Part shown: positions 2,753 through 20,110 of the stretch, piece after piece | How the letters are laid out: the number at the start of each line of letters is the position of its first letter | Numbering within the stretch: position 1 is the stretch's first letter | Origin: Rhizobiaceae bacterium | GTDB lineage: Bacteria > Pseudomonadota > Alphaproteobacteria > Rhizobiales > Rhizobiaceae | Assembly (NCBI GenBank): GCA_019635795.1 | Contig: JAHBYV010000019.1 | Coordinates: forward strand, 1 to 64,000 | DNA length: 64,000 bases | Direction of reading: 5' to 3' | Translations under genes and position numbers: made by a program | The notes under the pieces: model-generated | The model's input: only the letters and a program-made list of their open reading frames with translations | What the model was told of the DNA's origin: nothing | The model's database searches: none

Positions 2753-2762
2753 TGTATATACA
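2753..2762. promoter_or_regulatory. HutC/GntR-type operator upstream of the SDR gene
   Basis: A perfect ten-base palindrome TGTATATACA lies 40 bases before the SDR start. It matches the TTGTATATACAA-like core known for HutC-family regulators. The same core recurs at 4738-4747 and, with one change, at 14980-14989, in front of the other two transcription units of the cluster. The adjacent HutC-like repressor (3638-4393) is the obvious candidate to bind it. This is inferred from sequence only. Confidence 0.6.
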
Positions 2763-2801: not shown

Positions 2802-3623
2802 ATGATGGGCGCACGGCTTCTGAATAAGATAGCAGTCGTAACCGGTGGGAGCAGAGGGATTGGTCGACAGACCTGCATCGAGCTCGCGACAGAAGGCGCT
2901 AACGTTGCGGTGGTGGCAGGGCGTGATCTTGAGAGTGCTAGGCAGACCGTATGTGAAATCGAGGCGCTGGGGCGCAGAGCTATTGCACTTCAGGTTGACG
3001 TAAGAGACAAATTGCAGGTCGACAGGATGGTAACAGATGTGGTTGGTGAATTCGACCGCATAGATATCCTTGTTAACAACGCCGGAGGCGGCGGTGTTGG
3101 TAAGCCGCTGCACGAACTTACGGTCGAACAGTGGGACAATGCCTTCGCCCTTAATACCCGCTCCACATTCCTTTGCAGTGCGGCGGTCGCGCGTCAGATG
3201 ATAGCGCAGGGCTCCGGCGGAAGTATCATCAACGTTGCTGGCGCATCCGCCCACCGAAACTATGCTGGATACGGTGCCTATGGTCCGAGTAAAGCAGCCG
3301 TGATCTCGATGACGAAGCAGGCTTGTATCGAATGGGCTCCCTACGAAATACGGGTAAATGGCGTCAGCCCAGGGCCTGTTCGCGATCCGGATTCCGGCTG
3401 GCAAGAGCGCGAGCCGATCCTGGCCGAAGAGGTGTCGAGGCTACCCTTGGGCCGCGCCGGCACACGTAGGGAGATCGCACGGACGATCGTTTTCCTCGCC
3501 AGCGAGGACGGCGGCTTCATCACAGGGCAGATGATCGTCGTCGACGGCGGCGGGCTCAACACTTGGTACTTAACTGGTACCATCCGAAGCGGAGAGAAGA
3601 AGCCATTTTGGGGCAAGGATTGA
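2802..3623 (+). CDS. SDR-family NAD(P)-dependent oxidoreductase
   Basis: This is a short-chain dehydrogenase of about 273 residues with a Rossmann cofactor motif TGGSRGIG near the N-terminus, the NNAG motif, and the Ser/Tyr/Lys catalytic set (NVAGASA, then YGPSK). The C-terminal GGFITGQMIVVDGGG segment is typical of FabG-like members. ATG 2802 is chosen because GGAGGG lies at 2793-2798; ATG 2805 is equally possible, and the longer frame from 2700 has no ribosome site. The substrate cannot be read from sequence. Its operator and convergence with the GntR gene (15 bases between stops) place it in the catabolic cluster, where it could oxidise or reduce a pathway intermediate. Confidence 0.85.
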   Translation: MMGARLLNKIAVVTGGSRGIGRQTCIELATEGANVAVVAGRDLESARQTVCEIEALGRRAIALQVDVRDKLQVDRMVTDVVGEFDRIDILVNNAGGGGVGKPLHELTVEQWDNAFALNTRSTFLCSAAVARQMIAQGSGGSIINVAGASAHRNYAGYGAYGPSKAAVISMTKQACIEWAPYEIRVNGVSPGPVRDPDSGWQEREPILAEEVSRLPLGRAGTRREIARTIVFLASEDGGFITGQMIVVDGGGLNTWYLTGTIRSGEKKPFWGKD

Positions 3624-3637
3624 AATGGCTACGGCGT

Positions 3638-4393
3638 TCAAGGACGCGGGGGCCCGAACTGGGCTACGAGTTCATGGTGGTCGCCCGAATAATGCAACTT
3701 TACATGTGTGATGTATGTGTCGTTGTTCCATGTTCGGCGCTCGATCACAAGACAGGCGTCACCCACCTTTAGTTTAAGCTGTTTCGCTGTAATACGATCT
3801 GCGTTAACGGCACGAATCCGATGCTCAGCCGCGCTCCACGGAACGCGATTGATAAGCCAGCGACCTGGTGGAATATTCTCAAACGTCTCTTCTGCTACTT
3901 CGGGAACAGCCGATATATTTATTAAGCGCACTTCAAAGCAGAATGGCTCGCCGCCCGCCAAGTGCATTAGCTGCAGTGCGACCACCTCGTTTCGTCGGTT
4001 AATACCGAGCAATTGCTGATCGCTGGAATTCGCCTTGCGCCGCACCAGCGCCAAGCGCATGTATTGGTAAGAGAGCCCAAGAGCGGCCACTTCAGATTCG
4101 AGGTCACGGATTTCCAAGACCGCTGATCGCGTATGCGGATGCATAACATAGCTGCCCGACTTGCGCCGCCGCTCTATGAGTCCGCGCTTAACGAGGTAGG
4201 ACAACGCCTTGTTGACCGTCATCCGTGAGCATCCGTACTGTTCCATCAGCTCGTATTCAAATGGAATGCGGAACCCCGGAGGCCAGGCTCCCGAGACAAT
4301 CTGACCTTCAACGTCTTGTAATATCCGATCGTGGAGAGGACGGCGCGGCGCAGTATGTGTGACTGGATAGTCTTTTCGTGTTCTAGAGTTCAT
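3638..4393 (-). CDS. GntR-family (HutC subfamily) transcriptional regulator
   Basis: This 251-residue protein has an N-terminal winged helix (about residues 18-85, with PFEYELMEQYGCSRMTVNKALSYLVKRGLIERRRKSGSYV split across the HTH and wing) and a C-terminal UTRA ligand-binding domain (about 105-245, ending LVIERRTWNND and a FGPPRP tail). UTRA regulators bind small effectors; HutC itself senses urocanate. It lies between the SDR and lyase genes and is transcribed opposite to both, a common place for a local repressor. Three palindromes of the HutC type occur upstream of the neighbouring units, but none is obvious directly before this gene. The effector is probably the lyase product or a related acrylate, which is inference. 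Confidence 0.85.
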   Translation of the reverse strand: MNSRTRKDYPVTHTAPRRPLHDRILQDVEGQIVSGAWPPGFRIPFEYELMEQYGCSRMTVNKALSYLVKRGLIERRRKSGSYVMHPHTRSAVLEIRDLESEVAALGLSYQYMRLALVRRKANSSDQQLLGINRRNEVVALQLMHLAGGEPFCFEVRLINISAVPEVAEETFENIPPGRWLINRVPWSAAEHRIRAVNADRITAKQLKLKVGDACLVIERRTWNNDTYITHVKLHYSGDHHELVAQFGPPRP

Positions 4394-4737: not shown

Positions 4738-4747
4738 TGTATATACA
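4738..4747. promoter_or_regulatory. HutC/GntR-type operator upstream of the ammonia-lyase gene
   Basis: TGTATATACA sits in the 630-base gap between the divergently transcribed regulator and lyase genes. It is flanked by partly symmetric AT-rich arms (TTTA on the left, ACATAA on the right). A TTGACC hexamer just upstream (about 4724-4729) could be a -35 element, so a bound repressor would block the lyase promoter. The rest of the gap (4394-5023) holds no gene I can support; a 71-codon leftward frame at 4450-4665 has no recognisable features. Confidence 0.6.
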
Positions 4748-5023: not shown

Positions 5024-6574
5024 ATGAACGACAAGCATCTACATACACTCCATCCGGGAAGCGTTCCCCTTGCCGTACTAGAGGACATTTACTGGAACGA
5101 CGAGGCTGCCGTGGTGATCCACGACTCCTTTAATGACGGCATCCGCAAATCTGCAGTGCGCATTGCAGATATCGCGAGGGGGCACGCGCCCGCATACGGG
5201 ATCAACACAGGCTTCGGCAAGCTCGCCTCGGTGCGCATTCCTCCCGCTGATGTCGAGACGCTGCAGCGCAACCTCATCCTATCGCATTGCTGCGGTGTCA
5301 GCTCTCCCCTACCCCAAAATATCGTACGACTTATCATGGTTTTGAAACTGATCTCTCTTGGCCGCGGCGCATCTGGCGTTCGGATAGAGATTGTGCGGAT
5401 GATCGAACAGATGATCACCCGGGGCGTCATGCCTTTGATTCCGGAAAAGGGGTCTGTGGGTGCCTCCGGCGACCTCGCGCCTCTGGCGCATATGACAGCC
5501 GTTATGATAGGCGAAGGCTTCGCTGACATCAAAGGGCAGCGCCTGCCAGGTAAGGAGGCGCTGGCAAGGGCCGGCTTGAAGCCGATCGTCCTCGCTGCCA
5601 AGGAAGGGCTCGCCATGATTAACGGCACGCAGGTTTCCACAGCGCTTGCGCTCGCCGGACTGTTTCGCGCTCATCGTGCTGCCATATCGGCGTTAATTAC
5701 CGGCGCACTCTCGACCGATGCGGCTAAGGGATCAACATCCCCGTTCCATCGTGAGATTCATACTTTACGCGGACACAAGGGCCAGATCGAGGCAGCACAC
5801 ACCATCCAGATATTGATGAACAATTCTGAGATCCGCAACAGTCACCTCGAAGGCGACGAGCGCGTTCAGGACCCTTATTGCATCCGGTGCCAACCACAGG
5901 TGATGGGTGCCTGCCTTGATTTGCTCAACGCAGCTGCGCGATCGCTCTCGATCGAAGCGAATGCCGTGACCGACAACCCCCTAGTCCTGTCCGACGGCTG
6001 CGTGGTGTCTGGCGGCAATTTTCACGCCGAGCCTGTGGCTTTCGCTGCCGACCAGATAGCTTTGGCCGTCTGCGAGATCGGAGCAATTGCCCAGCGTCGC
6101 ATTGCACTGTTAGTCGACCCGTCGCTCTCATTCGGGCTTCCGGCCTTCCTAGCCAAAAAGCCCGGTCTAAACTCCGGCTTGATGATCGCCGAGGTCACTT
6201 CAGCCGCACTGATGTCGGAGAACAAACAGATGTCGCATCCAGCATCTGTCGACTCGACCCCGACATCAGCAAACCAAGAAGATCACGTCTCCATGGCCTG
6301 CCACGGGGCACGCCGTCTGCTGACGATGACAGAGAACCTCTACACCATTATCGGCATCGAGGCAATTACCGCCGCGCTAGGGATCGAACTACGCGGTCCG
6401 CTGAAGACCGGCACCGAGCTTCGGAAGGTCATTAAACGGCTGCGCGCTTCAGTGCCGACGCTTGATGAAGACCGGTTTATGGCAGTCGATCTCGAAACTG
6501 CCCGAGAGCTAGTGGCTAACGCAGCGCTGAGTTCGACTGTTTCGCCGGAGGTTCTCCCCACTATCGGGGACTAA
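5024..6574 (+). CDS. Histidine/aromatic amino acid ammonia-lyase-like enzyme
   Basis: This 516-residue member of the MIO lyase superfamily resembles HutH closely. The Ala-Ser-Gly triplet that forms the MIO group is at residues 147-149 ([15 protein letters not shown]). Also present are [10 protein letters not shown] with the catalytic Tyr, the NGTQ motif, [13 protein letters not shown] with the substrate-binding Arg, and ANQEDHVSM with the catalytic Glu. HutH normally has SHAAG and YSLRC; here they read SHCCG and YCIRC, both near the active site, which suggests a changed substrate. ATG 5024 is chosen because it precedes a HutH-like beginning ([15 protein letters not shown]); ATG 4994 is an in-frame alternative. 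No hutU, hutI or hutG lies nearby, so it may deaminate histidine or a histidine derivative (for example a betaine) in a non-Hut pathway. Confidence 0.85.
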
Positions 6575-7320: not shown

Positions 7321-8244
7321 TCAATATCCTTTGTGGCGGTCTACCTCACCGTCCAGTAAAAGCCCCTTTCGATAACGATCCAGATTCGCGATGATGTAAC
7401 CGGCGGCACTCTCCATTATAGTGTTGCCGGCGATATGCGGTGTAATGATGACTCTCTCATGCTTCCAAAGCGGATTTTGTGGCGGCAGCGGCTCAGGGTC
7501 AGTGACATCAAGTATAACTCGATCCAGATGATTGCTATCGAGAAGCGTCACCACCGCCTCCTGAACGAGATGGGCCCCGCGGGCCATATTGATAACAGAT
7601 GCTCCCCTTGGTAATGTGGACAGCGTCTCGACTGAAAGGAGGCCGCGTGTTTCGTCGGTAAGCGGAAGCAGACAGATTAAGATATTGGTCTCTGCAAGGA
7701 AACGCGGTAATTCCTCCGGCCCGCTGTAGCAATCAACGCCCTCGATAACGTGAGGAGTCCGGCTCCAGCCGCGCAGACGGTAGCCGAATTGCCGCAGGGC
7801 TTCTAGTACAGCGCGACCGATATGACCTAGCCCCATCACACTGACGCAAAGGCTTGCGGGTGTGCGCGAAGGCAACTGCCGCCATATGCACTCTCGCTGC
7901 TGCGCCTGATACGCAGGAAGATCCCGCGCAAGCGTCAGTACCCCCATCACCGCATAATGCTGCATTTGCTCGGTCAGGCCGGGCTCAACCATGCGGACGA
8001 CTCGTAAGCGTGAAGGCAGACTGTCGAAAGCGAAGTGATCGACACCTGCGCCGATACAGAAGAGAACTTCGAGGTTGGGGTAAAGGTCTGCGAGATGTAC
8101 AGGCTGTTCCCAAGTTAGCATGAACCGTACTGCATGCGGATCAACTCCGCTTTCTCTCTCGGCAAACGTAATTTCGGGCATTCTTTCTTCCAGTATCCTG
8201 CGTAGTACCTCACTGCGATTTCCATCTGCTAGGCAAAGAAACAT
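7321..8244 (-). CDS. D-isomer-specific 2-hydroxyacid dehydrogenase, GhrA-like
   Basis: This 307-residue protein of the glyoxylate/hydroxypyruvate reductase A type has the NAD-binding motif VMGLGHIGRAV (about residues 135-145). The catalytic Arg lies in VINMARGAHLV, followed by an acidic DVTDPEPLP region and the catalytic His in TPHIAGNT. The N-terminal catalytic domain is short, as in GhrA proteins. It is the last gene of the leftward operon, 44 bases after the FAD enzyme. In a breakdown pathway it could reduce a 2-oxoacid released from the imported compound; the real substrate is unknown. Confidence 0.85.
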   Translation of the reverse strand: MFLCLADGNRSEVLRRILEERMPEITFAERESGVDPHAVRFMLTWEQPVHLADLYPNLEVLFCIGAGVDHFAFDSLPSRLRVVRMVEPGLTEQMQHYAVMGVLTLARDLPAYQAQQRECIWRQLPSRTPASLCVSVMGLGHIGRAVLEALRQFGYRLRGWSRTPHVIEGVDCYSGPEELPRFLAETNILICLLPLTDETRGLLSVETLSTLPRGASVINMARGAHLVQEAVVTLLDSNHLDRVILDVTDPEPLPPQNPLWKHERVIITPHIAGNTIMESAAGYIIANLDRYRKGLLLDGEVDRHKGY

Positions 8245-8288
8245 CGTATCAGCCTACTTTTTATCCGGTCATGTCTAGCGAATATGCC

Positions 8289-9915
8289 CTATGGGCTCGA
8301 CAAAGCGATGGAGTTGGCACAGATATACCCCCACGTCATATTGGGGCCAAGCGTCGTACCAGGCCCGACGGCCCAGGTCCCGAAGGGGTTTCCCATTGCA
8401 ACCCCAGCACAATAGAGACCGCCTATCACGCTCCCGTCCGATCGCAAGACACGACCTGCGGCATCCGTTCTAGGCCCGCCCTTGGTTGATACAATGGTTC
8501 GATTAAACCGAATCGCGACGAAAGGCTTCCTGTGGATAGGCTTCAGGCGAACCGCCTTCCCGCCGCCGATTACGATGCCGTGCGGTCCGGGATCTTCGCG
8601 ATGAAAATCTACGTCCACGCCGTCGCGGCAGAACTCGTTAAAGCGTGCTATCGTTCGCTGGAGTGTATCTTGAGGAAGTGAAGTAGCGTTCGCCAGTTGC
8701 GCTATGCTGTCTTCCTGCACGACCCATCCGGGATTGCGCGCCGAGAAGTATCGGATTATAGGGGATCCCCGCAGGAAATCGGCGTCACTGATCAGCCACG
8801 CAGGCAGATGCAGCGGACTGTTGGTGATCGGATCACGTTCATCAATGACTGCTCCAAGATTGAACCGATATTCGTTGGTGAACCGCTCTCCGTTGCGGTC
8901 GACGATAATTGCGTTTGCTTCACGATGAAAAAAATGGCTGATGCCGAAGGGCAGCATGTCGGGCCTTATAGGGATCCCTCCAGTAACGTTGGCTTGGTCC
9001 ATATGGACAAGAATCGCGCCAGCTTGGCTGGCGATTTTATGAGCATCGCCGTCGTTTCCGGGCGGACTGCCGAGTAAGTCGATAGGACCCGGGAAGTGCT
9101 TAGCCAGGAGTTCTTTGTCCCATTCGAAACCGCCAGAGGCGAGGACCACACCACGACGGGCAAATATCCTGCGACGCTGCCCATTCTGCTCGACTATCAG
9201 TCCCACGACGCGCCCCCCCACGAGAACAGGCTCTACGGCACGAACACCCAAACGAACCCGACAGTCATTATCAAGGCAACCTTTCAACAGACCGACGACA
9301 AGTGCGGTGCCCATGCCGCGCGCACCTGTCAGCCAGCGCAGGGCGACTAATGGCAGTTTGCGCAGCCCAGCTTTAAGCGGGTGCCGGCTGGGATCTAGCG
9401 CGAGAGCCTCCTGATAGGTGAAAAGATGGGACAAACTGGGCGGACGAATTGCAGCGGTGTAGGGACCCGCCAAGCTCCTCCGAATCGCCCCCGGCGAGAC
9501 CATTCTTCCACGTTGCATTCCTCCGCGGATTTCCGGAAAGGCGTCGGGTTGGTCTGTCAGAGAAAAGCGCAGCGGGGTCGTCTGCTCGACGAAGGACAGC
9601 ATGTTCGGCGCTTCCTCGACGAAGCACTTCCAGAGCGCGTCCTCAGTCTCGCGCCAACCCTCCGGCGCGACACCGCGGATATAGGAAACCCGGCCGCGAC
9701 TATCCATCCAATCCGGCAGCAGCAGCAACGTGGTTTGCGGGAACCCATATCCCAGCCGCCGATAACGCGGTAGTGCCGCCAACCATGTTGGAGCGTTCCA
9801 AAATAATGGTCGAAAAGCCGGTCGAGGATGCGCGAAGGGCTGCAACCAACCCAGCTGAACCGGAGCCTGCAACCAGCACGTCGCAGGTTTCCTCAGCTTC
9901 TATAGGTAAGTGCAT
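8289..9915 (-). pseudogene. FAD-dependent oxidoreductase (KstD/fumarate-reductase-like), broken by one-base frameshift
   Basis: The first 71 codons (9915 down to a TAG at 9700-9702) encode the dinucleotide motif VLVAGSGSAGLVAAL and GGTTALSAAGIW. The remaining ~470 residues, with DSRGRVSYIRG, RRGVVLASGGFEWD and a C-terminal GPGTTLGPNMTWGY, continue in another frame to 8289. Removing one G from GGATGGATAG (complement, about 9700-9709) joins them as GLD-DSRG, which fits the family. Intact members of this FAD_binding_2 family are about 550 residues and include 3-ketosteroid dehydrogenases, fumarate reductases and urocanate reductase, so dehydrogenation or enoate reduction is expected. The gene lies in the operon between the helical protein and the dehydrogenase. 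A sequencing error cannot be excluded. Confidence 0.75.
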
Positions 9916-9968
9916 CAATATACCCTGAGATAGGGCGCCCCCGCAATGACGAGAGCTCCTATTGACGA

Positions 9969-10538
9969 TCAGTTGTTCAGGATGCTGGCAGGAAGCTCGC
10001 CCTTCGCGATAAGCGCGCGAGTCTCGGCTTCTGTCTTGCGAGGGTAGTCCTCGCCGAGCTCCCAAGGGAATACGAGGAAGAACCAGCGATTGAGACGATG
10101 CATGTAGTTGAACCAACTCCACATCAGGTCGTTGAGTTCCTCCTTTGTATTGATCGTGTCAAAGCATTCGATGATGTCTTCGCAGAACTGCGAAAGTTTG
10201 GGGAGGTTCATCCACGGTGCAGGACACTGAGGCGGAGAAACGTCACCCATGAGATGCAGCATGTGAGCATTCACGTAGATCCATAGCTTCTTGCAATGCT
10301 CGACAGAGAAATCGGGATCGGCAATGGCACGCTGCATAGCCGGGTGCGCCGTCCACCAGCTCATCGCCTGCGTATCGGCAACCTGGAACACCAAGTTTGA
10401 CAGGTACTGTCCGTCGGTGCCGGCACCGCTTGGAAACACACCCAGCCGCGACATCTTCACCTCAACGGGTTCTTCCCACATAATACGATCTAGATCATCC
10501 TCGATCGCATCTTTTACTTCCTTCCAATTTTTTGCCAT
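9969..10538 (-). CDS. Helical protein, possible C-terminal-domain partner of a cucumopine-synthase-like enzyme
   Basis: This 189-residue, apparently all-helical protein is rich in Trp, Met and His (VADTQAMSWWTAHPAMQ, LWIYVNAHMLHLMGDVSPPQ, LMWSWFNYMHRLNRWFF). ATG 10538 is chosen over the longer frame because GAGGAAAAG precedes it, one base after the stop of the upstream gene, so the two are translationally coupled. I recall that cucumopine/mikimopine synthases consist of an N-terminal cyclophilin-like domain and a C-terminal helical bundle of about this size. The pair here has the same order and combined length (about 345 residues) split over two genes. The link is an inference from memory and architecture, not from an alignment. 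Confidence 0.55.
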   Translation of the reverse strand: MAKNWKEVKDAIEDDLDRIMWEEPVEVKMSRLGVFPSGAGTDGQYLSNLVFQVADTQAMSWWTAHPAMQRAIADPDFSVEHCKKLWIYVNAHMLHLMGDVSPPQCPAPWMNLPKLSQFCEDIIECFDTINTKEELNDLMWSWFNYMHRLNRWFFLVFPWELGEDYPRKTEAETRALIAKGELPASILNN

Positions 10539-10539
10539 T

Positions 10540-11013
10540 TTACTTTTCCTCTCGGGAAACGTTGATCGTGACGAGCTTGTGGGTCCGATATTGGGCATTC
10601 CAAACATGCCGGCCGGCTTCATAAAAATCCTTCAGGTACTCGTCAGGGACCCGTGCAAAGACTGGACCCTTGGCTGGGAGAGGCTCAGTATTGTCGTCGC
10701 CATAGGCGAAGGATATCTGCAAGCCGCCCGGATAAGCCAGCGAGCCGGGCTTAAGGTCGCAAAGAAAGAGCGGGCGACCGCCTTTGCCCATACGTGGGGT
10801 AGCTTGGGAGCCGAGCGCGACCGGGTGACGGGGTGGACGGGCCTGAGCGCTGTAAAAGTCGCCAGTAGATGTCGTGTGCCAAGGCCACATTTTCCAAGAA
10901 GTTTCGAGCGCTTCCCATACCTCTTTGCAAATTTCAGGCTCTTCGTCCTCGAGAAGAACAGCAGGAACCTTCTTATCGAAGCCTTCCCACTCAATTAATA
11001 TGCGTTTTACCAT
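10540..11013 (-). CDS. DUF3830-like cyclophilin-fold protein
   Basis: This 157-residue beta-rich protein has the features of the DUF3830/cyclophilin-like group: a beta-strand start (MVKRILIEWEGF), a central helix with E and W residues (CKEVWEALETSWKMW), and the PGSLAYPGG segment followed by FAYGD. GGAGAAAA sits just before ATG 11013. In opine synthases of the cucumopine/mikimopine type a domain of this fold forms the enzyme's N-terminal half (recalled knowledge), and it condenses histidine with 2-oxoglutarate. Here it lies between an ABC importer and the helical partner gene, so a lyase (reverse) or related ring-opening reaction on an imported compound is the attractive hypothesis. Family membership is moderately sure; the reaction is not. 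Confidence 0.6.
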   Translation of the reverse strand: MVKRILIEWEGFDKKVPAVLLEDEEPEICKEVWEALETSWKMWPWHTTSTGDFYSAQARPPRHPVALGSQATPRMGKGGRPLFLCDLKPGSLAYPGGLQISFAYGDDNTEPLPAKGPVFARVPDEYLKDFYEAGRHVWNAQYRTHKLVTINVSREEK

Positions 11014-11049: not shown

Positions 11050-11865
11050 TCAGTTTCCCGCATTCTGCGACAAAATTTTCTGCAAGCCCGCAATCCTGTC
11101 GATCACCACAATGGCGAAGATCGATAGGAAGATCACTGAACTCACGACTGCAGCGCTGACCGCGTCATACTGAAACTGTATATGGCTGTAGATTTGGATA
11201 GGTAGGGGCGTCCATTTGGAACTCGCCAAGAAAATCGAAATGGCGAAGTCATTCCATGAGATAATAAAGCAGATCATCATCGACGCTATGAAACCAGTCT
11301 TCAACACTGGAAGTGTGATTGAGAAGAAGCTTCGGATCAGGCTGGCTCCAGCATTCCTGGCGGCCTCCTCCAGCGATCGGTCGAAGATAGATAGACTAGC
11401 TGTCAGAATGCGAACAGCGAAAGGAATCACCATCATCACGTGCCCAATCAGAAGCGTAACAAAACCGCCCCCCAAACCAATATTCATGAGGAATACATAG
11501 AGCGCGAGGCCGATGATGGTTGTCGGAACGAGCAGCGGAGACATAACGAATACGTTGAGCGCGGCCTTACCACGGAAGTTGTGACGCACTAATGCGAGGG
11601 AGATAGGGAATGCGAGTGCATTAGCAAGCAGCGCAGAACCTATCCCGAGCATAAGGCTTACGAAGACTCCCCGTCGGAACTGCGTCATGCTCCAGGCTCT
11701 CTCATACCACTCCAAGGTGAATCCCTGCGGTGGGAGCAAGAAACCGGAACTGTTGAATGAGACAAAGATCGTGACCGCAATAGGAAAGAACAGAAAAAAC
11801 AAGAGCGCATAGGTTAGCGTATTTAACGAAGCGCGATAGAAAGTCTGGCGAATAGAGTTAGTCAT
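11050..11865 (-). CDS. ABC transporter permease, PotC-like
   Basis: This 271-residue membrane protein has about six hydrophobic helices and the permease loop (EEAARNAGASLIRSFFSITLPVL) that contacts the ATPase. It resembles the PotC/YdcV subunits of spermidine/putrescine-type importers (FFLFFPIAVTIFVSFNSSGFLLPPQG near the N-terminus). Its start overlaps the stop of the other permease by four bases (ATGA). It forms the membrane channel with that subunit in the cytoplasmic membrane. The substrate is set by the binding protein and is unknown. Confidence 0.88.
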   Translation of the reverse strand: MTNSIRQTFYRASLNTLTYALLFFLFFPIAVTIFVSFNSSGFLLPPQGFTLEWYERAWSMTQFRRGVFVSLMLGIGSALLANALAFPISLALVRHNFRGKAALNVFVMSPLLVPTTIIGLALYVFLMNIGLGGGFVTLLIGHVMMVIPFAVRILTASLSIFDRSLEEAARNAGASLIRSFFSITLPVLKTGFIASMMICFIISWNDFAISIFLASSKWTPLPIQIYSHIQFQYDAVSAAVVSSVIFLSIFAIVVIDRIAGLQKILSQNAGN

Positions 11866-12776
11866 ACTCCGAGCCTCCAGAGGAAGAACCGTTGCATCAA
11901 TCGGGAATAGATTACGAGGATTGCTGCGCTGATTGCGACCATGATGACGGAGATTGCAGCGGCGAAAGGCAAATTGCCGAGTTGCATGGCCTGCTTATAA
12001 ACGACTAGCCCGATCAAGTTCGTATTGGCGGAACCAACCATTAGCGGGATAGCAAAGGCCGAGAAATTGAGGGCGAACAGGACGAGGACACCTGCATTGA
12101 GACCCGGAAGGGTGAGTGGGAGGATAATACTAGCGAAAATGCGCCAACCGCCGGCTCCTGCGTTGGCAGCCGCCTCTAGGAGCGTCGGTTCAATACGCTC
12201 GAAATTATCGAGTAGGGTCATGACGACATATGGGATACCGACATATATCAGAAGAATATAGACAGCTGGCATCGCATAAAGAAGTCGTATAGGTGCATCG
12301 ACGAAGCCAAGCCAAATGATCAGACTATTGAACAGCCCGCCACCGCGCAGAATTACGATCCAGCCAAAGACGAGGCTGACGAGGCCTATAAGTAGCGGAG
12401 CGAGTACTAAGGTCTGAAGAATCTGCCGGCGTAGACCGGTTGCTCGTGCGACGTACATTGCGATCGGATAGGCAAGCAGCACTGTAATCGCTGTTGAGAC
12501 GATCGAGACAAAGACTGACAGCCACACGACATTTCGCAGATACCAGATGTCAGCGAGAAAACGCACGTACTGGTCTAGGACCCAAGCGGGCACCATGGTC
12601 GTCCCCTGAGCCGTCTCGTAAAAGCTAACGCGAACCACCCACAGCAAAGGAAGAATCATGAACAGCACAAGTACGAGGACGCCCGGGGCCACCATGAGAC
12701 TCACCAACAGGCCTGGGCGCCTGAGGTGGTGGGGAGGGGACGCTTGCCGTCCCTCGATCAAACTGTCGACACTCAT
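11862..12776 (-). CDS. ABC transporter permease, PotB-like
   Basis: This 304-residue inner-membrane permease starts with a hydrophilic cytoplasmic tail and then a strong first helix (LVSLMVAPGVLVLVLFMILPLLW). The ATPase-contact loop reads LLEAAANAGAGGWRIFASIILPLTLPG. It matches the PotB/YdcU class paired with PotC-like subunits. Four-base ATGA overlaps on both sides show that ATPase, PotB and PotC are made as one coupled block. Confidence 0.88.
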   Translation of the reverse strand: MSVDSLIEGRQASPPHHLRRPGLLVSLMVAPGVLVLVLFMILPLLWVVRVSFYETAQGTTMVPAWVLDQYVRFLADIWYLRNVVWLSVFVSIVSTAITVLLAYPIAMYVARATGLRRQILQTLVLAPLLIGLVSLVFGWIVILRGGGLFNSLIIWLGFVDAPIRLLYAMPAVYILLIYVGIPYVVMTLLDNFERIEPTLLEAAANAGAGGWRIFASIILPLTLPGLNAGVLVLFALNFSAFAIPLMVGSANTNLIGLVVYKQAMQLGNLPFAAAISVIMVAISAAILVIYSRLMQRFFLWRLGV

Positions 12777-13843
12777 TTGATCAACATCATGTTCTGCGCT
12801 GCAATGTGAAATGTGAGCCTGTCGCCAACTTCGATGGACATTGGATCAACGTCGTGCACCTGAATCAAAAGCTTCCTGCCTGTTTCGGTCGTCGCAGAGA
12901 CCTTGCGACTGGCGCCCAAATATTCGATGAAATCGACTGTGACCGGATGTGTGTTTAAACCCTTATCCTCTCCGCTTCGCAGCACGATCCACTCCGGACG
13001 GGTCATCAGACGCACAGTCCCTTCCGGAGTATTCTCCCTTCGAGTGATATGGAACTCGAGACCGTCATCAGCGATGAAAAACGACCGCGACGAGTCGACG
13101 TGGCGAAGCGTTCCGTTAAAGTAATTCACACCACCAACGAAAGATGCGACAAATTCATTTGGAGGGTTGCGGTAAATTTCTTCGGGCACTGCAAGGCTGG
13201 CAATCCGTCCGCGATCCATAACCGCCACGCGATCCGACATCGACAGGGCTTCTTCCTGATCATGCGTCACATAGACAGTGGTTATATTGAGTCGCCGCTG
13301 CAATTCCTTGAGTTCCTTTCTCATGTCTACTCGGAGCTTGCGGTCGAGATTGCTAAGCGGCTCGTCCATCAAGAGAACTGAACGACCTAGCGCTAGTGCC
13401 CGCGCGACGGCGACACGCTGTTGCTGTCCACCGCTTAACTGTCGTGGAAAACGGGATTCTAAGCCCGACAACGCAGTAAGGGAGAGGGCGTCTCTGATAC
13501 GTTTGTCAATGTCGGCCCGGGAGAGGCCAGCCAACTTGGGACCGAAGCCGATATTCTCGGCTACGGTCATATGAGGCCACAATGCGTAGTTTTGGAAGAC
13601 GAAGCTGAGGTCCCGCTTATTGGGTGGTAGATAGGTGACCTCGACATCACCAATTTTAAGTGCACCGGAATCCGGCATGATAAATCCCGCGATCATCCTC
13701 AGCGTCGTGGTCTTCCCACAACCACTGGGGCCCAGGAAGGAAACGAATTCGCCGGGCTCCACGGTGAGAGACATGTCGCTGACGGCAACAAAATCTCCGT
13801 AGCGTTTAGATATTCCGTTTAGAGAGATTTTCTTGCCAGTCAC
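12773..13843 (-). CDS. ABC transporter ATP-binding protein, PotA-like
   Basis: This 356-residue ATPase has Walker A GPSGCGKTT (about residues 38-46), signature LSGGQQQRVAVARAL, Walker B LLMDEPLSNLD and the switch His in VTHDQEEAL. A C-terminal TOBE-like regulatory domain follows (about 240-356). These are the hallmarks of PotA/FbpC-type ATPases energising polyamine-like or organic cation uptake. It follows the binding protein by about 56 bases and overlaps the next permease. Confidence 0.9.
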   Translation of the reverse strand: MTGKKISLNGISKRYGDFVAVSDMSLTVEPGEFVSFLGPSGCGKTTTLRMIAGFIMPDSGALKIGDVEVTYLPPNKRDLSFVFQNYALWPHMTVAENIGFGPKLAGLSRADIDKRIRDALSLTALSGLESRFPRQLSGGQQQRVAVARALALGRSVLLMDEPLSNLDRKLRVDMRKELKELQRRLNITTVYVTHDQEEALSMSDRVAVMDRGRIASLAVPEEIYRNPPNEFVASFVGGVNYFNGTLRHVDSSRSFFIADDGLEFHITRRENTPEGTVRLMTRPEWIVLRSGEDKGLNTHPVTVDFIEYLGASRKVSATTETGRKLLIQVHDVDPMSIEVGDRLTFHIAAQNMMLIK

Positions 13844-13899: not shown

Positions 13900-14922
13900 C
13901 TACTGGTTGACCATGCGCATGTACTGTTCCTGCCATGCGCCGCGCACCTTGTTCAATTCAGTGAAGTCCACGAGCAACAAGTTGTCGAATGCTTCTCCTT
14001 GAACAAGCACGCCACGGAGCTTGAAGTCGTCGGGCAACTTTACATTCTTGTTAGTGGGCGCATATAGATTGTTGACCGCAAATGCGACTTGAGCGGTTTC
14101 ACCCAAAGCGAAGTCGATGAACTTTTGGGCGATTTCGGGTTGCTTAGTCGTGTTGATAATGCTCATGGCCGTGATAGTGGGAAAAGTTCCCTCCTTCGGA
14201 CGTGCGATCTTAATGTGGTCTAGTCCGCGATCCCAGAGATCCTTGATGCGGCCAGTCGTGAGTGGCCCCAGCCACGCCTCCTCCGTCTCAAACAGTGAAA
14301 CGAGTTGGCTTTCGGCATCGGTTTGCGCCACGGCATTTCCGCTGTTAACCAACTCCGCAAGGCGCTTCAGGCCCGGTTCGATATTCTCAAAACTGCCGCC
14401 GTGAGCATTTGCTTGTTGCACTGCCAGAAGCGCGGCAGCCTGACTTTCTATAGACCACATGCCAACGCGATTTCGGTACTTTTCATCCCACAGCACATCC
14501 CATGTAGTCGGCTCCTCGGTTACATACTTGCTGTTGTAAACGAGGGCATAGTCTCCGACATTGGCCCACACTATATTCGGTGAATGACGCGCGTTGTCAT
14601 AGAGACTGGCGAGGTTAGGAATGAGTTTTTCATCCAGTTTGAGAAGAAGTCCATCCTGTTCGGCTGCAGTAGTATGGATCATGGTGTTGGTCATGACATC
14701 GACCTCGCCGGCTCGCGCCTTGACGACAAAATCCTGAGATACACCTATAACCAAGTTAACCTTGCAGTTATGTAATTTCTCAAATTCAGGGATGATGGAT
14801 TCATATGTCCGTTGATAGTTGCCGCCCCAAGTTGAGACGTTAATGCTGCATTCTTGCGCAAATAGCGGCGCCGAAAACAGGGTGAAGACGCCTGCCCCGA
14901 TAGCTTTGTACCAGTACTTCAT
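13900..14922 (-). CDS. Periplasmic solute-binding protein of a PotD-like ABC importer
   Basis: This 340-residue protein has a signal peptide (MKYWYKAIGAGVFTLFSAPL, cleavage near FAQE) and a spermidine/putrescine-type binding fold (STWGGNYQRTYESIIPEFEKLH, later GMWSIESQAAALLAVQQ). ATG 14922 is chosen because GAGGAG precedes it at proper spacing; an upstream in-frame ATG at 14943 would add an MNEEILQ tail in front of the signal peptide. It is the first gene of the eight-gene leftward operon, so uptake is likely to be its main entry step. Ligands of related proteins are polyamines, amino-acid-like or opine-like molecules; the ligand here is not readable. Confidence 0.88.
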   Translation of the reverse strand: MKYWYKAIGAGVFTLFSAPLFAQECSINVSTWGGNYQRTYESIIPEFEKLHNCKVNLVIGVSQDFVVKARAGEVDVMTNTMIHTTAAEQDGLLLKLDEKLIPNLASLYDNARHSPNIVWANVGDYALVYNSKYVTEEPTTWDVLWDEKYRNRVGMWSIESQAAALLAVQQANAHGGSFENIEPGLKRLAELVNSGNAVAQTDAESQLVSLFETEEAWLGPLTTGRIKDLWDRGLDHIKIARPKEGTFPTITAMSIINTTKQPEIAQKFIDFALGETAQVAFAVNNLYAPTNKNVKLPDDFKLRGVLVQGEAFDNLLLVDFTELNKVRGAWQEQYMRMVNQ

Positions 14923-14979
14923 CTGAAGAATCTCCTCATTCAATCAGTTGTTCCGCTTACTCTGGCTTATGCGTTTTAT

Positions 14980-15022
14980 TGTATAGACATAAGAGCTAAC
15001 AGCTTTTAAGAAGGGCTGTCAA
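14980..15022 (-). promoter_or_regulatory. Operon promoter with HutC/GntR-type operator
   Basis: On the minus strand TTGACA (15022-15017), a 17-base spacer and TTAGCT (14999-14994) form a plausible sigma-70 promoter. Just downstream lies TGTATAGACA (14980-14989), nine of ten bases matching the TGTATATACA palindrome, with AT arms (TTAT on one side, TAAG on the other). It is about 58 bases before the binding-protein start. A repressor here would block initiation or early elongation of the import operon. Confidence 0.5.
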
Positions 15023-18216: not shown

Positions 18217-18834
18217 CTATCTACGCTGGCTGTTGTTTTCTCGAATTTTAGCTTGCTTGATGACTACATCGAGCATTGTTTCGGCTGCCTGAACTCTCGT
18301 TAGGCCCGTTGCCAGAAATTGATTCAGCAAGTCTTTCGCGCCTTCAAACGCTTTCGCGATATCTGGATTGTTCCGATGGCGGTTCGATCGTGCCTTCTTT
18401 CTCCAATCCTTGATACTCTCGCCAGCAGCGCGATACCTTGAGCCCTCAGGCAATGGCAAGCCGGCCATTCTAAAGCGCCTTTCGACTTCTTTGCAGGCAA
18501 CATCTCGACCACCCATTTCATCTACGTAAACGGATGCAATCGCAAAATAGTGTTCACTTTGAAATGACGCTCTCGGTCGCCCCTTTTTCCTAGACTGCTC
18601 AATGTCATATGCAATTTTTGAACTTCGCCCTTCGAGCGCATTTATCAGTTCTGCGCACAAGCCCGCTAACAGAAGCCTGATGCTTTCAGGTTCTCCTCTT
18701 GCCGCGGTGAATTCTGCTAACGCAGTGACACACATCACCACTTTTCCGAGCGACGTAAACTCCGACCCGTTGTCGGCGATGTACTTCAGTGTTTGGTAAA
18801 GTTCGATATCGGCAGAGACAATCTTATCTGTCAT
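18217..18834 (-). CDS. Hypothetical protein next to the integrase
   Basis: This 205-residue protein has no family I recognise. The first third is helical with Cys/Ala-rich segments (VVMCVTALAEFTAARGE). The middle is basic (SRKKGRPRASFQ), followed by a predicted HTH-like region (ACKEVERRFRMAGLPLP) and a helical end. Its start overlaps the integrase stop by 11 bases, so it is co-expressed with it and may be an element-specific regulator. Confidence 0.6.
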   Translation of the reverse strand: MTDKIVSADIELYQTLKYIADNGSEFTSLGKVVMCVTALAEFTAARGEPESIRLLLAGLCAELINALEGRSSKIAYDIEQSRKKGRPRASFQSEHYFAIASVYVDEMGGRDVACKEVERRFRMAGLPLPEGSRYRAAGESIKDWRKKARSNRHRNNPDIAKAFEGAKDLLNQFLATGLTRVQAAETMLDVVIKQAKIRENNSQRR

Positions 18835-20110
18835 TTTCGCTGCGCTCCAAGCCGCTTATGAAATTAGCCCATCCCTCCAAAGCAGCCCTCTTCTCGGCTG
18901 CGTAATCATGCCTATTATAAACTGCAGCAACACCCGAAATTGCCCCGCTTTTGTGGTTAAGAACGGCCTCGACAACGTGAATTGGAAACCCAAGCCGAGC
19001 CATTCCGGTCGTTGCTGACCGGCGCAGATCGTGCAACGTCCAAGCTGGAATGATGGCCTCGGCATCTGCCTTCTGTGCGAGCGCCAGCATTCCCTCATCC
19101 ACATCCTGTTTTGCCTTAGAGAAGCCAGAGATTGGCGTATTGCCGGTCACAGTGAAAACAAACTCGGCCTTGCCATTTTTGTTTAGGACACGAGGAATGG
19201 CTTCGAGGATGCCAATGCAGGCACCTGTCAACGGAACCCATTGGTCACGCCCATTTTTGGTTCTATGGCCCGGAATAAGCCAACCAGGATCGTTCCCCTG
19301 CAAGGAGAGTTCATGCCAACGCATTCCGGCCACCTCATTGCGGCGCTGCGCCGTCAGCAGAAGCATCCGCAGGTATGGGCCAAACGGCCACTCCATATTC
19401 CCCGCAGCCTTCCAGAACCATTGAACCTCAGCATCAGAAAGCACACGATCACGAGATGAAGCATGATTGTCCCGCCGAATGCCATCCATAGGTGACGATT
19501 GAATATAATCCCGTTGAACTGCCCAGCCGAAAAACTTGCGGAGGTATGCATGCGCACGGTCACCAGCAACTTCATGTCCCGCAGCGTCCAGCCTATCCAG
19601 CAGCTTGATCGCATCGCGACGCGTGATTGAAGCGAGTGCTAAGCCATTCCACTTACGGGCTTTGCCGAAAGCCGTGCGATAGGCCTTTTGAGTATTCTTG
19701 GCCAGCCGCCGCTCAACATAAAGCTCCATAAAGTCCGCAGCAACAGCCCCGAAAGTAATCTCAGCCTTGCGCCGGTTTTCGTCAATCTCGTCCTGGCGAA
19801 GCCTACGCGGGTCAATCCCCCGGCTTGCATTGTCAAGCAGCACTCTTGCCCTGTCCCTCGCCTCAGCCAGTGTAAAGCCGGAGGCGTGTTCGTCCCCGAC
19901 CTCTTTATTCGGAGAGAACCTGCCGACGCTGAGCCGAACAACCTTGCCCTCACTACCCTTGATCCTTGTAGCGACGAAAAACGTTGACGCGCCGCCATGA
20001 CTTACCCTGATGCCAAAGCCCGGAACGAGCACGTCGAAATAATCAACCTGTCCCTTCGCAGGGACGGGAATGTTCCTAAGCCATTTATCTGTAAGCTTCT
20101 GTCTGGGCAT
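18824..20110 (-). CDS. Tyrosine-type site-specific integrase
   Basis: This 428-residue integrase of the P4/IntS type has an N-terminal DUF4102 arm-binding domain (MPRQKLTDKWLRNIPVPAKG), a core-binding domain (about 110-190) and a catalytic domain. The conserved Arg is in LLTAQRRNEVAGM, His-X-X-Arg in LHDLRRSATTGM, His in VVEAVLNHKSG and the nucleophile Tyr in VAAVYNRHDY. Integrases of this type use the 3' end of tRNA genes, and a truncated tRNA-Lys lies 150 bases upstream of its start. It catalyses integration and excision of the island. Confidence 0.92.
   Translation of the reverse strand: MPRQKLTDKWLRNIPVPAKGQVDYFDVLVPGFGIRVSHGGASTFFVATRIKGSEGKVVRLSVGRFSPNKEVGDEHASGFTLAEARDRARVLLDNASRGIDPRRLRQDEIDENRRKAEITFGAVAADFMELYVERRLAKNTQKAYRTAFGKARKWNGLALASITRRDAIKLLDRLDAAGHEVAGDRAHAYLRKFFGWAVQRDYIQSSPMDGIRRDNHASSRDRVLSDAEVQWFWKAAGNMEWPFGPYLRMLLLTAQRRNEVAGMRWHELSLQGNDPGWLIPGHRTKNGRDQWVPLTGACIGILEAIPRVLNKNGKAEFVFTVTGNTPISGFSKAKQDVDEGMLALAQKADAEAIIPAWTLHDLRRSATTGMARLGFPIHVVEAVLNHKSGAISGVAAVYNRHDYAAEKRAALEGWANFISGLERSENDR

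Follow-up and report, generated by a model that had tools for sequence, protein, structure and literature searches.

The 64,000 nucleotides analyzed (the window; positions 1 to 64,000 of contig JAHBYV010000019.1, assembly GCA_019635795.1 of a Rhizobiaceae bacterium) carry on the minus strand two short adjacent genes, P0002 (10540..11013; 157 residues) and P0001 (9969..10538; 189 residues), encoding the cyclophilin-like and the helical-bundle half of the fold found in cucumopine synthase and in the Pictet-Spenglerases McbB and KslB. The genes lie in different reading frames and are one base apart, P0001 starting with the codon at 10538 and its stop codon ending at 9969; coordinates and lengths agree with those of the two open reading frames (ORFs) singled out in an initial annotation made from the letters alone. 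They are genes 5 and 6 of a same-strand run headed by an ABC importer (14943 to 11050), with which they are presumably co-transcribed. Substitution patterns make both look like real genes under purifying selection. In the helical gene, nonsynonymous rates (dN, 0.14-0.40) are lower than synonymous rates (dS, 0.71-2.63) in all 6 pairs formed by 4 sequences; in the cyclophilin-like gene dN is lower than dS in the 2 of 6 pairs which could be computed, dS being saturated in the remaining 4.

P0001 matches the Pfam family Cucumopine_C (PF18631; E 1.4e-10, 42 bits against a cut-off of 27), and its helical profile matches the McbB structure 3x27 (E 2.8e-12). P0002 had been called DUF3830-like in the initial annotation. 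The cyclophilin-like fold stands, since a profile built from four relatives matches both 3kop (E 1.6e-5) and 3x27 (E 2.1e-5), and the domain is homologous to that of McbB; the match to DUF3830 proper (PF12903; E 0.018, 15.5 bits) is weak, under the Pfam cut-off of 26. In the fold comparison P0002 corresponds to residues 0-142 and P0001 to residues 158-311 of McbB, each to one half of the protein, in the same order. The resemblance to a split opine synthase was thus borne out, both halves matching the family by profile and by fold, and on sequence and fold comparison P0002 and P0001 are the halves of the cucumopine synthase/McbB/KslB fold, distributed over two genes and not contained in a single polypeptide. 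McbB is a synthase, able also to decarboxylate and to oxidise, according to the available text of PMC7024544. Its active site is described, in the available text of PMC11015028, as lying between two subunits, which fits an enzyme having its halves on separate chains.

The glutamate of a YGxxTE motif (E110 of P0002) is present in all 27 sequences aligned, McbB included. The same alignment shows no variation at G51, G90 and G105 of P0002 or at P24 and G40 of P0001. E110 aligns with McbB Glu97 (numbering derived from the residue range of entry 3x27), which we take to be catalytic. McbB positions 72 and 87, presumably active-site residues too, correspond to variable columns of the same alignment, among opine synthases as well. 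Both E110 and an FPW motif are common to the window pair and cucumopine synthase.

The importer is made up by a substrate-binding protein of the SBP_bac_8 type (13900..14943; listed with a TTG start, the true start may be internal), an ATPase with ABC_tran and TOBE_2 domains (12773..13843) and two BPD_transp_1 permeases (11862..12776 and 11050..11865), all on the minus strand and exceeding Pfam cut-offs. The same strand carries a FAD_binding_2 flavoprotein gene (8289..9927) and a D-2-hydroxyacid dehydrogenase gene (7321..8244; 2-Hacid_dh_C, with GhrA as best, sub-cut-off, NCBIfam model). The coding sequence of the flavoprotein is split between two frames (9700-9927 and about 8289-9700), and relatives at two other loci (L002 and L003; loci are designated by L numbers) stay open across the same point; the change of frame near 9700 is either gene decay by frameshift or a sequence error. 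Further along are a histidine ammonia-lyase gene, hutH (5024..6574, plus strand; TIGR01225, 686 bits against an equivalog cut-off of 539), a HutC repressor gene (3638..4393, minus strand; TIGR02018, 280 bits against an equivalog cut-off of 220) and a short-chain dehydrogenase/reductase (SDR) gene (2802..3623, plus strand), whose product shares 56% identity with the SDR next to the split pair of pSYM. A separate hut operon lies elsewhere in the genome (HutC, HutF, HutI, HutH, HutG, HutU and HutD by ORF reading, the urocanase by Pfam), hence HutH and HutC of the window are second copies, 57.3% and 49.8% identical, respectively, to the products of that operon. The importer, histidine-lyase homologue and HutC-like repressor of the initial annotation were therefore correctly recognised, as judged by equivalog and Pfam cut-offs, and the window holds the combination of importer, HutH/HutC and genes of the McbB fold by which a cucumopine/mikimopine catabolic cluster is recognised. 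A transposase-type integrase core gene (1391-2236) and a tyrosine recombinase gene (18824-20110) flank the region, which may be an island; no tRNA gene was found adjoining it.

For the HutC operator we assumed the pattern TGTATATACA of Pseudomonas as search consensus, allowing one mismatch; the site at 4738 had been noticed before the pattern was chosen. Three operator-like sites were found in the window, against 0.47 expected, a number reached in 1 of 100 shuffles. Two have the sequence TGTATATACA, one (2753..2762) about 40 bases ahead of the SDR gene, the other (4738..4747) between the divergent hutC and hutH genes, some 280 to 345 bases from their listed starts. The third, TGTATAGACA (14980..14989), lies about 40 bases ahead of the importer/pair operon and is a variant that recurs in the hut operon located elsewhere in this genome (L055 4239). 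Similar sites, some of them intragenic and given without a computed expectation, were detected in L002, L003, L021, L022, L024, L029 and L031; the same pattern search found none in L004, L017, L018, L019, L027, L028, L030, L032, L033, L058 and L059.

Loci of relatives were gathered from a scan of species genomes (3 loci), from whole-genome matches and from plasmids (regions of 11 among 18 records, more being added). All 28 matches to the helical domain, found in 20 loci, have an adjacent or fused cyclophilin-like match, seven of the 28 pairs having seeded the profiles. Among the 26 pairs which were aligned, 16 are split and the rest fused. Split pairs have the cyclophilin-like gene first in 14 cases, the window included, and the helical gene first in two (L029, L030). 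Fused proteins with the cyclophilin-like domain first are three (mis of pRi1724, catA of pRi2659, catA of L031), an order shared by McbB; those with the helical domain first are seven (the T-DNA cus genes of L025 and L020, catB of pRi2659 and of L031, one gene of L027 and two of L058), an order shared, per profile matches, by KslB. Two split pairs of the type found on mikimopine plasmids reside on pMl1 of Sinorhizobium medicae (L059 9077-10044 and L019 11552-12519), with no T-DNA gene annotated within the regions viewed.

In the tree, the root and long branches of which are uncertain, the window pair groups with L002a, L003, L004 and L017 (support 100/100). This clade is set apart from all opine-plasmid sequences (100/100) and is thus outside the clade of T-DNA cus and catabolic catB genes. 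Helical-first fusions form a single clade (96/95). For those with the cyclophilin-like domain first, including McbB, three changes are required, so that fusion or fission occurred several times. Locus L002 hosts two different split pairs on opposite strands (8127-9177 and 9363-10398), one of the window clade, the other of the L029/L030 clade. A further clade of split pairs is formed by L032 (9166-10157) and L033 (9213-10202), where ABC ATPase and SDR genes are found beside the pair.

Genomic contexts were compared at 18 loci outside T-DNA (the window, L002, L003, L004, L017, L018, L019, L021, L022, L027-L033, hut-linked L058 and L059), further Agrobacterium copies of the L022 type (L020, L023, L024, L026, L060) and a his-linked pSYM copy being excluded from the count. 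At least one of HutH, HutC, HutU, HutI, HutF and HutG is encoded at 9 of them (the window, L002, L003, L004, L021, L022, L029, L031 and L058), L003 having HutC only. Where a genome measures several megabases and has one or two hut loci, a hut gene should by our own estimate be met by chance within a stretch of 20 kb in about 1 case in 100 or less. HutH, HutI and HutU exceed equivalog cut-offs at the locus of a rumen Oscillospiraceae, a Firmicute (L004). The aromatic lyases of L032 and L033 are distant, 39-40% identical to the window HutH, and were not counted as hut; hut genes are absent from the stretches of L017, L018, L019, L027, L028, L030 and L059. The oxoprolinase-type proteins HyuA and HyuB are both present on L018, L021 and L022; for L058 and L059 the annotation shows HyuA. 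Neither was found in the five stretches of the window clade, that of L002 stopping at the contig end, and no window protein matches HyuA/HyuB of L018, L021 and L022. The flavoprotein is found in 4 of 12 loci compared (the window, L002, L003 and L030). Genes for a UbiX-like flavoprotein and a UbiD decarboxylase lie near split pairs of two clades (L003 4145-6094; L027 2-1971).

Gene pairs on plasmids bear on the direction of the reaction. On the mikimopine plasmid pRi1724, a split pair is located by importer and HyuA/HyuB genes just outside the T-DNA, a repeat resembling a T-DNA border (2 mismatches to the consensus, 0.01 expected) lying between it and the T-DNA gene; no hut gene was found in the pRi1724 stretch examined. 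In pRi2659, the products of catB in the importer/hut cluster (NC_010841) and of the T-DNA gene (NZ_CP019703) agree in 285 of 315 residues (90.5%) and have a single uninterrupted identical core in common; record NZ_CP019703 contains both. The identical core with differing ends is seen at L022 11980-12927 (catB) and L025 11986-12948 (T-DNA synthase), which suggests that the two genes recombined recently. The T-DNA genes are here named cus and mis after plasmid type, as given in the available parts of PMC6733357 and PMC8554961, position and family; in sequence records they are labelled hypothetical proteins. On the Paraburkholderia phenoliruptrix plasmid pSYM, one copy adjoins importer genes and a complete set of hut genes; the other, 98.1% identical (317/323), adjoins hisG and the gene for its regulatory subunit, hisC and a transporter gene of the major facilitator superfamily (MFS). 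By analogy with rhizopines the two copies look like a make-and-eat pair. On this Mimosa-nodulating symbiosis plasmid, the region of the his-linked fused gene, which is cucumopine-synthase-like, and its neighbours (L058 34236-40547; NC_018696.1 634235-640546) is 23 kb from the hut-linked copy. Near-identical genes occur in T-DNA or his settings and in importer/hut settings, which we read as essentially one enzyme core serving synthesis in the one case and cleavage in the other.

The pair is probably a two-subunit retro-Pictet-Spenglerase, which within a hut-linked operon would free histidine from an imported histidine-carbonyl adduct. The importer would take up a tetrahydro-imidazo[4,5-c]pyridine-6-carboxylate, i.e. 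L-histidine ring-closed with an aldehyde or a 2-oxo acid in the manner of an opine. The complex of P0002 and P0001 would reopen the ring by a retro-Pictet-Spengler reaction, with E110 as acid-base catalyst at the subunit interface; cleavage of the C-C bond would give an iminium, and its hydrolysis L-histidine and the carbonyl partner. HutH would turn histidine into urocanate, which would relieve HutC at the three operators and feed the separate hut operon. SDR, D-2-hydroxyacid dehydrogenase and flavoprotein might process the carbonyl partner or a modified form of the substrate. HyuA/HyuB would open a lactam form of cucumopine; missing HyuA/HyuB and additional dehydrogenases therefore point to a carbonyl partner other than that of cucumopine, and the window substrate is probably not cucumopine itself. 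The proposal of the initial annotation, by which the pair would break down an imported opine derived from histidine, gains from relatives residing beside importers, mostly with hut genes, on cucumopine/mikimopine Ri/Ti plasmids, and is modified in that a relative of cucumopine is the likelier substrate, the window being devoid of HyuA/HyuB.

The pair might instead run forwards, joining histidine and a carbonyl to a compound secreted or stored, or scavenging toxic carbonyls, with the importer supplying a precursor. The characterised members known to us are synthases (McbB in the available text of PMC7024544; KslB and cucumopine synthase), and the pSYM relative adjoins hisG, its regulatory subunit, hisC and an MFS transporter. 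Yet the window has an importer, not an exporter, in one locus with HutH, HutC and HutC-like operators, and relatives occur in clusters with near-complete hut sets, which makes synthesis an unlikely function here. It is also rather improbable that the fold is kept for another step on an imported derivative, such as epimerisation, decarboxylation or dehydration, ring opening being left to the flavoprotein. Such a change of role would be in line with the decarboxylation and oxidation by McbB reported in the same source, with the related flavoprotein at the window, L002, L003 and L030 loci, and with the single pair and redox genes which in the window replace the catA/catB duo of cucumopine plasmids; but no match to the flavoprotein was found in the stretches of L004 and L017, the window's own flavoprotein gene has an interrupted frame, and the pair has both E110 and the FPW motif in common with cucumopine synthase.

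Cucumopine and mikimopine, in which histidine is joined to 2-oxoglutarate, are the presumed substrates on Ri/Ti plasmids and very doubtful ones for the window pair. The fold is the same, HutH and HutC are found in both the window and pRi2659, and the importer is akin to one of the two of pRi2659 (substrate-binding protein 26%, ATPase 51% identical). On the other hand, the window clade is apart from every opine-plasmid sequence with full support (100/100), HyuA/HyuB are found in 0/5 clade stretches against both on L018, L021 and L022 and HyuA on L058 and L059, and the window has the D-2-hydroxyacid dehydrogenase and flavoprotein in addition. Least credible, and scarcely worth entertaining, is an adduct of tryptophan or another amine, of the beta-carboline type, with hut genes adjacent by chance: solved structures with named ligands do contain tryptophan or its products (PDB titles), but HutH and HutC exceed equivalog cut-offs, operator-like sites lie upstream, and hut genes recur at 9/18 loci with different importers.

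We regard it as an even call whether retro-Pictet-Spenglerases of this kind belong to a scattered catabolic pathway, in which enzymes of the Pictet-Spenglerase fold, often of two subunits, recover histidine from tetrahydro-imidazopyridines in soil, plant and rumen bacteria, T-DNA opine synthases being independent fusions of such subunits in opposite domain orders, and one core making the opine in the plant and unmaking it in the bacterium. To our knowledge, known catabolism includes no retro-Pictet-Spengler reaction; if the proposal is true, one would be added, the consumption of cucumopine and mikimopine and the origin of their synthases would be explained, a family of two-domain enzymes would gain two-subunit members, and a pool of histidine adducts so far unrecognised would be predicted in soils, root nodules and rumen. 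Opine synthases, the fold family they belong to and the cucumopine-catabolic region of pAtAg67 are already known. In the literature searched, which mostly lacked subscription papers, neither a split member nor a Pictet-Spenglerase working in catabolism was found described, and the term retro-Pictet-Spengler was not met among the papers listed for it. The statement of the initial annotation that no pathway with this gene set had been described is too strong, as the pAtAg67 region has been published (Hooykaas et al. 2022, as cited in the available text of PMC10745273). In the pAtAg67 record hutH, genes of the McbB fold and the importer are side by side.

The catabolic cluster of pRi1724 resembles the window in having an importer and a split pair, to which the window proteins are 30.2% and 26.1% identical; those of pRi2659, pTiLBA1190 and, in part, pAtAg67 in having an importer, HutH/HutC and fused genes of the McbB fold. 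HyuA/HyuB are found in pRi1724, pRi2659 and pTiLBA1190, the last two having a full hut set, whereas the window lacks HyuA/HyuB, has HutH/HutC only, and differs from opine-plasmid clusters by its SDR, D-2-hydroxyacid dehydrogenase and flavoprotein. The enzymes and chemistry of mannopine catabolism are unrelated to those of the window. Its catabolic genes on Ti plasmids are homologous to T-region synthesis genes, going by a title cited in PMC4231840. Protein 3kop, uncharacterised and short (158-188 residues), has the cyclophilin-like fold in common with P0002 and is matched both by profile and in the fold comparison. McbB (3x27) and KslB (9ns6 and others) match the window pair in fold and domain content, McbB having also the glutamate of YGxxTE and the domain order of the window operon, an order reversed in KslB; both, unlike the window pair, are single polypeptides which act on tryptophan substrates in biosynthesis. 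The T-DNA synthases Cus and Mis, expressed in the plant for opine synthesis, share with the window pair both domains, Cucumopine_C and the conserved glutamate, but each is one fused polypeptide, in which the helical domain precedes the cyclophilin-like one (Cus) or follows it (Mis).
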